Part shown: piece after piece, positions 7,276 to 13,200 of the stretch | How positions within the stretch are numbered: the stretch's first letter is position 1 | Layout of the letters: each line of letters starts with the position of its first letter | Source: a virus | Direction: 5' to 3' (one strand) | IMG/VR virus record: IMGVR_UViG_3300009181_000239 | Coordinates: 1 to 30,199 of that record | DNA: 30,199 nucleotides | Program-made: the position numbers and the translations under genes | The notes under the pieces: model-generated | What the model was told of the DNA's origin: nothing | The model's database searches: none | Seen by the model: only the letters and a program-made list of their open reading frames with translations

Positions 7276-10200
7276 AACGCTTATCTTCTCCTGACATGCT
7301 GGTTGAGCGTATTGCATTCTCGTACGCAGTCAAGTCACGCATGGTGGATGTGTAATAGTCAGACATAGATGCCATCATGTAATCATTGCTACGGGTTTGA
7401 ACCAAGCGCATGGCCTCGGCTTTCTCACCTTTGGTAATGAGATCATCCACAGTAGTCTCAAGCTTTTTCAAGTCCGCTAGCTTGTCGTAAACGCTTGTAA
7501 TAATCCCGCCCGCATCATTGGGTTGGAACAGACCGCCAACAACAGGCGTCTCAGACAAACGCTTATACGCTTTCTCTGGTGATTCCCCCGTTGGTACGCC
7601 CATGCTGACCGCTTGTGCAAAAGCCAAACCCATCGTGCCGGTATAACCACGAATCAACTCGTCCAACTTAATTGGAGAAACACCCGCTACTTTGCCAATC
7701 AATTTAGATACCTCAGTTGTATTGGCTCTAAACTGATATTCGGGCATTAGCGCGGCCTCATGGGGCGTAAGAGTATCTCTACCTGTATAGAACGACTTGC
7801 CCAATCCTGCTTCAATAGCTGGACGCAGTGCTTGGGGAATACCGTAAGACGTACCGCCGGGGATGGTCTGCAACAAGATTTGTTCAAACGCTTTCACAGC
7901 TTCTTCTCCGCCGTGCTTGTTCTTCATGGTGTTGTACAACGCCTCGGGCAAAGCCTTAAAGATGTAACCAATCTCAAAAGGAATTGGCAAACGAATAGGT
8001 TCGTCTACGCCGGGGATACGAATAAACCAGTTGCCGTACTTTTGTTCTGGCGTGGCATTCTTGTACGCCTCGTCATCTTGCATCATGTTTGCGTAGGCCA
8101 GAGTACCCGCCGCAACCATCAAACCTCGTGTCAACAATTTCTCTTGAATCTTTAAGCGTTCATTGAACGGAAGCTTTCCTGTCAACGCTTTGTACAACAC
8201 GTTCATGGATTGAATCTGCGCGTTAAAGAAAGGAATCATAGCGTTCATCCAATGCACGCTAGGTGATGCTCCGCGCTTGTTAAAGTTCATAGACTCAAGC
8301 GACATTAGCGTGGCTTCCATTTCAGAAAGACCTTGCTTAATGTAGCTGTTGTATTGTGCGCGGCGTGTAGCGGCATCGGCTTCCATGTTAATTGCTTCGG
8401 CTTTGGCAATAAGTTGTGACCAGTTTGATCTACCGGCAGTGATGTCTTTAAGAATCTTGGTCAAGTCTTCGCTTGTACCCGTAAAGATTTGACCGCCTGT
8501 AATACCACGCTTTTCAAGTATTTCTTTTGTTGGACTGCCGATCTCTCTTATTGCTCCCATCACAGGGGTAAAGTCAGCACCGGCCAATAAAGGTGCGGCA
8601 ACTGAGTCACGGAACAACTGCTTTGCCGCGTATAGAGGCGATAGTGTCACGGCTTTACGCAACAACTGTGCGGGAGCGGCAAGCAAACGCATCATGGCGG
8701 GCATCTGTGTTGGGATACCTTCCATGCCTTTGACCAATATGTCAGCAGGAATGCCTACTTGATCGGTGTCAATAAGCGCATACTTGTCTTGGCCGTTGTC
8801 TTTAAACTTAACCACATCAGGGCCGGACGTTGATCTGCCCCCGCCAATTTTAGCCAAGCCCATGTTGGCCAATTCAAACACAGCGTTCTTTGTGGCTAAG
8901 TTGCGTAAGCCCATGTCCGCAAGCATGTTGGTGTTTTGCACCGAGCTTGTCATAAAGTCTAGGATAGGTTCATCACCGCCAACCAACTCTTGCAAGTAGG
9001 GTTGCTCAGCAATGCTACCAATGCGCACGGGTGTTTCGCTACCAATAACCAACTCAGCTACGCCGTTGCGTTGACGATACCAAGGAATGTAATCGTTTTC
9101 TTTTAACAAATTAGCGGCGTGCTCTTTAGATATAGCGCCAGTTTGTACCAAGAAGTTGATAAGGTTTTTGTTATACCCGTTGTATTCATGGCGGGCGGCT
9201 TCAAAAATCTTTTTAAGACCGGGGGTATTTTCCACGGCTTTAACTGCGGCGGCCAAATCAGCTTCTGTCACTCGGCCATTAAAGTTTAGAGAACCAATGC
9301 CTTTATCTTTAACGCGAACAGCCGACATGTACAATGTAAATAATCTGTTTACAGCTTCTCCATTGCCAACCAAAGGCGTGGCTTCTTTCAAAGTCTCCAC
9401 GACTCCTTTTAGGCTATCGCCCTCAGTGGCTTCAATCAAGTATTCTTTTTTGCCATCAGCACGGATTTTCTCAACTATCTGAGGTGCACCCCTAGCAACA
9501 GACTGTGCTACAAAGTTCATGCGCTGATCGTACATGCGCAAATAGAACATCATTTGTGAACCACGCAAAGGTTCCATCAGTTTAGATAGCTTTTCAAACC
9601 CAGCAAAACGATCCACAAATTGTGTCTCTAGGCCGAGCCACCCGCCGGAGGCGGCTTGAACGCGTTGCTTGATATTCTTTTGTTTGGCAACAAACTGGTC
9701 AGCAATATGCCCCGCCGCGGCAAGTTCTGCTGAAACATATTTAGGTTTTACAGAAAATAATAATTCTCCTACTTCAGGCAATTCATTTTCTGCAATTTCT
9801 CCGTTTTCTTTTTTGGGTAGTTTATCTATTGTAGCAACAAGCTGTGAACGCACATTTAAAACAGCCGCTTGTAATTTTTCAACTGCGTCAGGTTTGCTTT
9901 TTAACAAATCTATTAAAGATTCAGTAGAATCCCCGTTGCCGTAACTTTCCCAATGTAGATGCGAGTACAGGCTTTCTTTACCTTCTATATCGGAATCCGC
10001 GTTGTACAACGCTTCAGCAAATACATCGTTATCTATATCAAAAGAATATTGTTTTACTATGTTTCGTAAAGCCGGAGTTTTAGCCATGCCTATCGCAGTG
10101 CTAAACCATGAGTCAGCGGCATTTAGTGTTGCGTTAAACAGTTTTGCTTTAGCGTCAAGCGACATACCCATGTTAACTGCGGGTAACTGCATTCCACCAA

Positions 10201-13200
10201 CCGCGGCTACTGCCCCACGTAAAAAAGCACGGCGACTCATACCGCTTGGCGTAGGTTGCATTTCCATTTGTGCCGCACCAAACGCCATGTCAACCAAGCC
10301 TTGTGCGTCAAGGCTTTCAGGGCGCATACCAAACTTTTGCAATAGTTTACGAAAACTATCTGCAATTTTACTTAGCCACTCACCCAACACACCTTTGATT
10401 TTGTTAGGGGTAACGCCCGCCTTAACCGCTTCTTCAACAGCATACGCCAAGATTTCATCAGATCTTTGACTTGCTGGGGTGTTAGCTTCGTCTACCCGTG
10501 CTATAGCTTCTTTAGCAATGCGAGACTCTACAGAGTTGTCGTTTCTTTTTGCCCAAGATTCAATAGTGCTACTGAGCGTGTCATACTGTTCTTTGCCAAG
10601 TATGTTCTTTAACCCAACGTGAGCGCCTACTTCGTGCAGTAAAACACCTAACGCTTGTCCTTGATTAATATTTTCTGCAATTAAAAAAACTTTGTTACCC
10701 GCAGTATCTACAAAACCGCGTGTGTTTGAAGGAATGCGGTCTTTATATTGAGGGTTGCTTTGTAATAGGGCATTAACAGAAGAATAGATTTTAATACGGC
10801 CTAGATCAGTAAAGTGTTTTTTTAATTCTTGATTAACTATAGAAACAGTACTGGGATTATCTGTACTACCGCGAGAAAACCCAATGCCTTTTTCAAGGTC
10901 TTCGTCAGCTTGGAAAACCAACGGCCCCGCCTTGCCTTCATATATTTGTTCGCGTGTCACGTTAAGCACTTCTTCTGTCAACGCCACGGTTTCAGCAAAC
11001 AAAGACTGCGCCGCTTTAGCGGGCATATTAAAGAATTGAGAAAGCGCTTCAACAAATCTAGTAAAAATACTCTTACGTGGTTTGTCTGAAGGAATTTCAG
11101 TCAACAGTTTTTGAAATTCTCTGTTGGCAAACAACTCTGCAACAAATTCTTTGGCGTTGGTTAAACCGTAAATATCAGAAGGCTTCTTAGCGCCCAAGAC
11201 CATGCTATGATTTCTAAAGTATGTTCTGCCTTCTGGCGTAGCTAACCAATCTACAACTTTAAGACGCAAAGCATCCATTTGTTTCATCAACTCAGGCTGC
11301 AAGTTCATAGCGCGAACAGTTGCAGCATGAGTCAACTCATGCAATAAAACTTTATTAACTTGCGCTGAATTACTATTTACATAAACAACGTCAAGAGACG
11401 TGGTATAAATCCCCGACGCACGCATTTTACCGTCTACAAGATAATCGTCAGTCATGTAAACACGACCGCTACCATCCATTATGGGGGCTTTAGAAAACAC
11501 TTCAGCCAACGCATTAAACAATTGCCTAACCATTGGAGACGTTGTTTTTTGTGCACCATAACGGGCGGCTTCTTCAAAAGTCAAACCATGCAACGGATGA
11601 TCTTTTGCTATCGTTGTATTAAATTTACGCGCGCCTGCGTTTTCAACAGCTTCTTTAGTCATTGACCGCAATTGTTCAAGCGTAGGTGCGGGTTTAGGTG
11701 TAGGTTTAAGTGCTGGCTCTTTTCTTTTTATTGGTGGATAGTTAATTAATGTTTTTACAGCAATAGGTCTGCTAGGTTTAAAAGGCGGCACTCGCATTGG
11801 ATCAAAATCATTGTTCAACGCATCGTCAATTAAATCGTCTTGTAATTGACTTTCAGGTGCTTTTTCTGCATTCTTTAATATCTTGCGTTCTTCTTTGAAC
11901 GTGGCTTTAGCCGCTTCTTTGTTGAGCTTAGCATCTCTTACATACGCTTGTTGTTCAATAGTTAATTTTCTAAGCTCTTCTTTTGCATCATTGCGTTTAG
12001 CAACAGCTTCTTTTTTGGCTGTAGCTTGTTTCTTACGGCCTTCTGCGGTTGCAGATGGGTTGTTGGCAATGTAATCAATTTGTTTTTGTGCGGCAGCAAG
12101 TTCAACTTTCTTTACGGCAATCTGTTCAAGAGGCGTAACTTTGCCTTCGGCTTTTTCAAGTTTAAATTGTCTTTCTTGTTCAGCAACATTTGGTTCTTTA
12201 ATAGCCGTCTGTATACGCCCTGTTTTAGTTTTGACTACGCCTTCTACTTTGCGAGTGGATAGTCTTAAAGGACGAATGCCTGACTCTTCGTACATTTGTT
12301 TCATGGTTGCTTCTAATGTCGCACGTTGTGCTTCATCAAACTCTTCCATTGCTTCTTGTTCTTTACGATAAAATTCGTCAGTACTCGTAATTTTCTGTGG
12401 TGCGTTGTCTAATGCGTTGTATATTTTGTTGTACGAATTTTCCACGGCTTTGGCCGCGGCTTCCATTCCTGCTTTATCACCAGCAATACGTGCTTTTTCA
12501 TACGCATTTTCGTATTTGCCAATGGCTCCACGCAAACCATTAACCGTATTTTGTACCGAAAAATTTAACGTATCACGAATAACAATGGTTTTATTGCTGC
12601 CGGGCGTACGTTCCAATATAGTGGCAATAGTCGGAGTACCGGGTTCTTTAGCGGGCATACCCGCCGCTTCACGCGCAGCCTCCGCTTTGTTCTTAGCAAC
12701 TGTTTCTTCGTTCTGAGCTTTTCTAACAGCTTCTTTTGCGGCTTCTAATTTACGTTCGGCCTTATCGCCTTCGTTTATTAACGCCTTGTCAATAGTGTTG
12801 CCTGCTTGTTCTTCAAGAACTTTTTTCTGTGTGGCACGCGCTTGCTCAAGAGCTTTCTCAATACTATTAAAAATCTTTTTGTGCTTTTCAATGTCTTTAA
12901 TAATAAATTCAAAACCGGCACGAATTTTTTTAGTATACGGGTGCAACAACAATTCTTTGGACACATAGTCCAAGCCATCCTCTAGTTCTTCTAGCTTTTT
13001 CTTAGCCTGAAAATAAGCTGTCTCAAGATCAGAAACCATGTTTCCAATTCTTTGACGAGCGGACATGCGTTGTTTTCTAATATTATTGGCTATTTTTATA
13101 GCTGTTGTAACAGCAGAATCTTCAGCGGTAATTTTAGTCAGCGTTGCACGCGCCGCTTCAACAGGGTTTTTCTTGGACTCCTCAAGCTTTTTGTTGTACG

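Follow-up and report, generated by a model that had tools for sequence, protein, structure and literature searches.

A conserved internal twin-arginine segment at the head of an optional cassette in a giant polyvalent-type phage protein

Polyvalent proteins rank with the largest proteins that phages encode, and for many of their modules no function has been assigned. Those of phages and plasmids were surveyed by Iyer et al. 2017 (PMC5512222). The consulted parts of that survey describe a HEXXXH metallopeptidase class of these proteins (section 8), report processing of P1 DdrB ahead of its packaging, and propose that polyvalent proteins are cut by metallopeptidases of their own. Signals for twin-arginine translocation (Tat) are expected at the N-terminus, but an internal Tat signal functions in a Streptomyces Rieske protein, as stated in the consulted part of its report (PMC13186574). 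Here we analysed a viral DNA of 30,199 nucleotides (IMG/VR record IMGVR_UViG_3300009181_000239; hereafter, the window), which encodes a giant protein of the polyvalent type with a Tat-like motif, SRRAFLRG, deep within its 3114-residue chain. The motif heads a cassette that lies directly behind a metallopeptidase module (Table 1). It is conserved and under purifying selection, its cassette is present or absent as a unit, and similar segments recur in other giant phage proteins (L numbers denote our loci). We propose that the segment may serve as a Tat-type targeting element.

Conservation of the motif and exchange of its cassette

The motif lies in the segment GMSRRAFLRGAVAAVGG (residues 2095–2111). 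As a first-pass annotation of the window had described, it is directly preceded by a methionine and placed between the second metal site (HEVGAH) and the LPD38 part of the protein. Of the text which that annotation gave after the motif, AVAAVGG is correct, but ANMGM is not; the actual continuation is MQLPAVNMGM, from which a few letters had been lost. Alignment splits the region into the peptidase module and the cassette, which opens with the Tat-like segment.

A scan with the peptidase module yielded 21 loci, and MSRRxFLRGA follows the module in 13 of them, on 13 contigs (L086–L096, L103 and L104); this proportion exceeds the true share, as peptide-pattern scans miss diverged copies and a blastp recount added modules of which none had the motif. 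The window is counted here through L086, which is identical over the module, and L103 and L104 end at contig ends. All residues of MSRRxFLRGA except x are kept in the 13 contigs, and the motif lies 212 residues from the start of the module in every one, so that the conservation of SRRxFLR, proposed earlier as a check, was borne out at identical spacing. The alignment with the divergent L104, which is 46–51% identical to the other full-length rows, likewise retains MSRRxFLRGA.

Comparison of the window with L104 gave, for the ten motif codons, 2 identical, 7 synonymous and 1 non-synonymous, and for the next 27 codons, 4 identical, 7 synonymous and 16 non-synonymous; both stretches are in register, and counts across indels (in L104 over the peptidase module, in L090 beyond the motif) were excluded. 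The serine codon of the motif varies by member among AGT, AGC and TCT. Because the codons vary synonymously while the residues stay, the motif is under purifying selection, and its conservation is a protein-level one rather than a consequence of recent common descent.

The remaining eight modules of the scan (L097–L102, L105 and L106) run into a different linker or domain. Homologues without the arginine pair, whose occurrence the first-pass annotation had regarded as speaking against a signal, thus exist, but they are without the whole cassette. A scan with the cassette itself returned 11 loci, which are on the same contigs as L086–L096; all of these contigs bear peptidase modules, and none of the 11 matches is a stand-alone cassette. 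In a third scan, ten more distant peptidase modules were collected (L156–L165), none of which has the motif. The recount by blastp (E<=1e-5) covered all collected loci and treated as one any copies that agreed in the end of the module and in the residues behind it. It gave 35 distinct modules, of which 9 carry the motif and 26 do not, none being too short for the call. Each cassette match in the recount begins at cassette position 1 or 3 and so includes the motif; none was found without it. Use of the wider region (residues 1900–2750) as the query yielded 79 loci, of which 4 have the motif (L002, L003, L004 and L011), a lower bound because several loci end before the region (e.g. L013, L052, L054 and L061). 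In most of the motif-less loci among the 79, the best match begins at about residue 2220–2275, and in a few earlier.

L104 has the cassette and L101 lacks it, although their peptidase modules share 98% identity. On a tree built from 24 modules (those 21 found in the module scan, together with L161, L162 and L164), the cassette label has to change three times, and well-supported branches force two of these changes. The cassette has therefore been gained or lost as a unit. In L011, the peptidase/cassette stretch occurs at another place in the protein, ahead of the region matching the first metal site of the window protein, and is therefore exchangeable. A GTWHGT-type domain occupies the slot behind the peptidase in many of the 26 motif-less modules, and the slot behaves like an exchange site. 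In L018, L035, L161, L164, L165, L157 and L097, it holds other domains, chiefly of the GTWHGT type, or a second metallopeptidase.

Likeness to Tat signals within and beyond the family

The window segment has the S-R-R-x-F-L-K/R core of Tat signals. The resemblance noted in the first-pass annotation holds in that the motif is conserved and the best family matches of the cut-out segment are Pfam TAT_signal (PF10518) and TIGR01409, although both fall below the cut-offs. Among 16 segments picked by the motif, PF10518 matches 15 and TIGR01409 matches 13 at E<=1, partly by construction, as the motif itself was the selection. The position, residue 2097 of 3114, is not the N-terminal one expected of a Tat signal.

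The uncharged run after the K/R position, which in the window extends to the first aspartate, comprises 20 residues in the window, 22 in L088, 9 in L090 and L104 (followed by lysine) and 3 in L140. It is 12 residues long in the giant proteins of L166, L185, L182 and L180, as against 14–20 in five phage open reading frames (ORFs) with a near-N-terminal motif. The versions in giant proteins tend to end in P-K or L-P and not in A-x-A. These run endings, together with a kept AVGxMxLP after the motif, speak for a docking or anchoring signal rather than a cleaved export signal, or else for a look-alike.

To sample the motif beyond the family, we searched IMG/VR with DNA patterns, which fix some codon choices and thus sample rather than count. 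The pattern for SRRxFL[KR]GAxxAxG gave 24 stretches, 12 of the cassette family and 12 others; the latter comprise near-N-terminal motifs (L127 and L131), internal ones (L121, L124, L130, L138 and L140) and matches that look like chance or pattern slack (L119, L125, L129, L134 and L139). With two more patterns, 21 and 44 stretches were obtained, and the new loci numbered 64. In 8 of the 64, the motif is in frame within a stop-to-stop ORF of at least 1000 residues: L166, L174 and L170 represent one protein type, L185 and L186 another, and L182, L180 and L208 (a contig of the cassette family) complete the set. The remaining matches, in short ORFs, were judged by eye to be mostly chance or N-terminal.

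L182 and L180 encode LPD22 polyvalent proteins with an internal Tat signal near residue 250. Their segments score 30.9 and 27.3 bits, respectively, against PF10518, above the cut-off of 22.7, and those of L185 (21.0) and L166 (18.0) score below it. The two LPD22 proteins are 41% identical overall, and the neighbourhood of the motif is much better kept. A HEAIGH peptidase, a relative of the window module (hhalign probability 92, 93 columns), precedes the motif in L166; by our reading, the insert would split this peptidase ahead of its C-terminal helices. The helical stretch after the L166 motif was considered as a cassette homologue and was not accepted, as only a 35-column piece aligned (probability 61).

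Several smaller genes with the motif were also seen. Those with a near-N-terminal motif, L127:11357-11671 (-), L131:5851-6519 (-) and L171:210-770 (-), look by eye like ordinary Tat precursors; we take the L131 protein to resemble an enzyme of the chitinase/lysozyme type. Mid-sized proteins with an internal Tat-like segment (beginning TRRDFLRGAGAALGG or SRRGFLRGAGAAAG) are encoded at L130:1555-4194, L121:4322-4990 (-) (a fragment), L124:3007-3978 and L138:7552-8604, those of L130 and L121 having common short peptide modules in differing order.

Layout and models of the host protein

The gene of the 3114-residue protein is the last large gene in a minus-strand block of virion and ejection genes. 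Its neighbours in the block match PHROGs for a transglycosylase, a DNA ejection protein, a virion structural protein, an endolysin and tail fibres, and its place beside the genes for transglycosylase and DNA ejection makes it likely that the protein is packaged and ejected with the DNA. The LPD38 match covers residues 2818–2996 (E 3.7e-30; 105.9 bits against a Pfam cut-off of 27). The peptidase module, the cassette and the LPD38 part are shuffled among relatives.

Table 1. Positions of the features in the window and of related giant genes at other loci
Feature	Position	Strand	Remarks
Giant polyvalent-type protein, 3114 residues	7181..16525	-	ORF; LPD38 match
First metal site, HELTH (HEXXH)	11327..11341	-	Residues 1729-1733
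Metallopeptidase module, 206 residues, HEVGAH (HEXXXH form)	10259..10876	-	Residues 1884-2089; begins at FSRG joint
Tat-like cassette, 168 residues, PTPSGMSRRAFLRG to ELLFS	9752..10255	-	Residues 2091-2258; found behind the peptidase module as a whole or not at all
SRRAFLRG core	10214..10237	-	Residues 2097-2104; Met 2096 precedes
Uncharged run GAVAAVGGMQLPAVNMGMSL, 20 residues, similar to the hydrophobic (h) region of signals	10157..10216	-	Residues 2104-2123 (from G2104)
Helical domain of the cassette	9752..10180	-	Residues 2116-2258; six main helices modelled; AlphaFold2 mean pLDDT 85.4
Giant proteins with internal SRRxFLKGA, a 12-residue apolar run, then K	L185:3029-9634; L182:3393-8510; L180:89-3598; L166:522-9263		

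In an alignment of six rows, the HEXXXH site of the peptidase module reads HEVGAH in five and HEVGSH in one. Glutamates at E141, E148 and E149, after the site, are invariant in the same alignment, which suggests a role for a conserved glutamate in the module. No Pfam peptidase family matched the module at its cut-off (DUF6782, 11.9 bits against 27). By tblastn, the module is weakly similar to DarB-like proteins (about 28% identity; best E 2e-5).

A 375-residue model of the peptidase module and cassette was weak, with a predicted local distance difference test score (pLDDT) of 59.6 and values below 50 at model residues 178–231, which include the motif; in the model, the motif segment is thus a linker-like stretch between two domains. 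Its PDB matches were meaningless (none at E<=0.001), and the search of BFVD gave one polyvalent protein at 2.1e-4. The helical domain, modelled alone by AlphaFold2 as 143 residues, obtained the higher score listed in Table 1. No convincing fold relative of it was found: the best VIA-align Z was 5.4, a value that carries no meaning for a helical bundle, and no BFVD match reached E<=0.001. A Pfam assignment of the cassette was rejected, as nothing reliable appeared (P22 Inj_translocase, E=0.094, far under its cut-off). Two pattern-based scans of bacterial genomes, for the window cassette region and for L182/L180, gave no relative. Among named phages, residues 1900–2750 had no match at E<=1e-5 and the L166 and L182 stretches none at E<=0.01; the L096 copy of the cassette and L140 each had one chance-level match (E=1 for the former).

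The joints between modules (window 10876 and 9752; L085, L099 and L162) often read FSR or LLFS(R), and such a joint could possibly be a hinge or processing site. FSR occurs 35 times in 67 related proteins, against 15 expected; this excess is weak, and we did not adopt FSR joints as cleavage sites but record them as a remark.

Proposed role, alternatives and relation to known systems

We estimate a probability of about one half that the twin-arginine segment is a functional Tat-type targeting element, which heads an optional cassette and docks its domain at the host TatBC. From the features described above, we infer packaging, processing, Tat binding and an outcome in the following way. The modular protein would probably be packaged and ejected with the DNA, its cassette lying directly behind a HEXXXH metallopeptidase (or, on our reading of L166, inside one). 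The segment could then be looped out as an internal signal, or its N-terminal side could be freed by the adjoining peptidase. The helical domain, or a C-terminal fragment, would dock at TatBC on the cytoplasmic face of the inner membrane, and docking might result in anchoring there, in passage across the membrane, or in occupation of the translocase. The signal may be masked within the long chain until processing, which would explain how virions can be assembled without an export-type signal sending the protein astray. The fragment suggested by the first-pass annotation, released from the chain and directed within the host envelope, is a reasonable but putative one. A broader proposition is distinctly more tentative: that giant ejected polyproteins carry mobile internal twin-arginine cassettes, which are exposed by the adjacent metallopeptidase after entry and engage Tat from the cytoplasm, either for envelope placement or as a decoy that jams the translocase.

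Several results weigh against a Tat-type role. The cut-out window segment scores 17.1 bits against the PF10518 cut-off of 22.7 and 15.6 against the TIGR01409 cut-off of 16.7, and whole-protein scans of the 3114-residue protein list neither family. The apolar run is short and accompanied by lysine in some members (9 residues in L090 and L104; 12 in L166, L185, L182 and L180), and no A-x-A cleavage site is evident by eye in the window segment. The AVGxMxLP after the motif is kept in all 12 contigs that reach that far, which exceeds what an h-region would need; this was not read from the L104 alignment, in which L103, cut by the contig end, hides the invariant columns beyond the motif. With 4 of 79 wider-region loci and 9 of 35 distinct peptidase modules having it, the cassette is optional, and a protein arriving from outside does not obviously need to be exported.

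Many of these points would also fit a Tat-independent look-alike, a short helix that binds a membrane, DNA or a virion partner in packaging or ejection and is conserved for that role. The sub-threshold scores in the window family, the short run with its lysine, the lack of an evident cleavage site and the position after a folded domain are all compatible with such a helix, as are the retention of the run after the motif and the P-K or L-P endings, a feature of the giant proteins' own. It accounts less readily for the full consensus S-R-R-x-F-L-R in 13 of 13 contigs, for internal copies exceeding the Pfam Tat cut-off in L182 and L180, and for the near-N-terminal motif in the apparently ordinary Tat precursors of L127, L131 and L171. 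We regard the look-alike as a possible explanation that is clearly less probable than a targeting element.

The segment could instead be a remnant, left passive when a phage protein that had once been independent and exported by Tat became joined to the end of the peptidase. The modular presence and absence of the cassette and the N-terminal Tat-like versions in other phage genes would be expected from such a fusion, but the purifying selection that holds the motif even between deeply diverged members would not be, and the cassette scan showed no stand-alone form among its 11 matches; this origin is unlikely. An internal translation start at Met 2096, raised in the first-pass annotation, would let the gene encode a second product, a Tat precursor in its own right. 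The methionine does precede SRR in all 13 cassette contigs, but no conserved Shine-Dalgarno-like stretch or other ribosome-binding sequence lies before its ATG among the cassette members, the upstream codons differ freely, and the corresponding residue is leucine or proline in the giants of L185, L180 and L182. We consider this start very improbable and not supported. A chance match, which the length of the protein alone might suggest, is refuted by the conservation in 13 of 13 cassette contigs, a stronger argument than the expected count of 0.0004 for [ST]RRxFL[KR] given the protein's composition, as the motif was chosen after being seen.

If a Tat-type role is true, the recurring internal signal would place at least one class of polyvalent module at the Tat translocase of the inner membrane, which would give a direct test, and such viral use of Tat would be invisible to predictors of N-terminal signals. 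In a Klebsiella screen, according to the consulted part of the report, tatC mutants showed fitness with three phages present; SignalP-6.0 found no Tat signal in phage proteins, and the authors took the role to be indirect (PMC13412088). If SignalP looks only near the N-terminus of a protein, it would have missed internal signals, although those phages are not known to carry proteins of the present kind. In the open-licence literature searched (titles and abstract starts in the wider searches), there was no report of internal Tat signals in polyvalent or ejection proteins; PMC5175280 had tatC only as a primer sequence match, and the main text of PMC5512222 contains neither 'twin-arginine' nor 'signal peptide'.

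Compared with DarB-like antirestriction proteins, such as those of Burkholderia phage JC1 and Pseudoalteromonas phage vB_PalP_Y7, the window protein has a distantly similar peptidase module, whereas its cassette, queried as the L096 copy, found nothing above chance level in named phages. Like Tat signal peptides (PF10518, TIGR01409), the phage segment has the S-R-R-x-F-L-K/R core and then a weakly apolar, Gly/Ala-rich run, but it lies deep in the chain, its apolar run is short, and the window version is below the cut-off. The Streptomyces Rieske protein, as far as the consulted part of its report goes (PMC13186574), is alike in having a Tat signal within the chain that serves the domain behind it; it is a polytopic membrane protein, however, whereas the phage segment follows a soluble-looking peptidase. 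In build, the window protein resembles the polyvalent proteins with zincin-like metallopeptidases, which, in the consulted parts of PMC5512222, are also giant modular proteins beside virion genes, with LPD38, HEXXH and HEXXXH peptidase sites and shuffled modules; the window protein differs from them in its internal twin-arginine cassette. We class the 3114-residue protein with the polyvalent proteins and regard its cassette as a novel variation on them rather than as an established Tat signal peptide.

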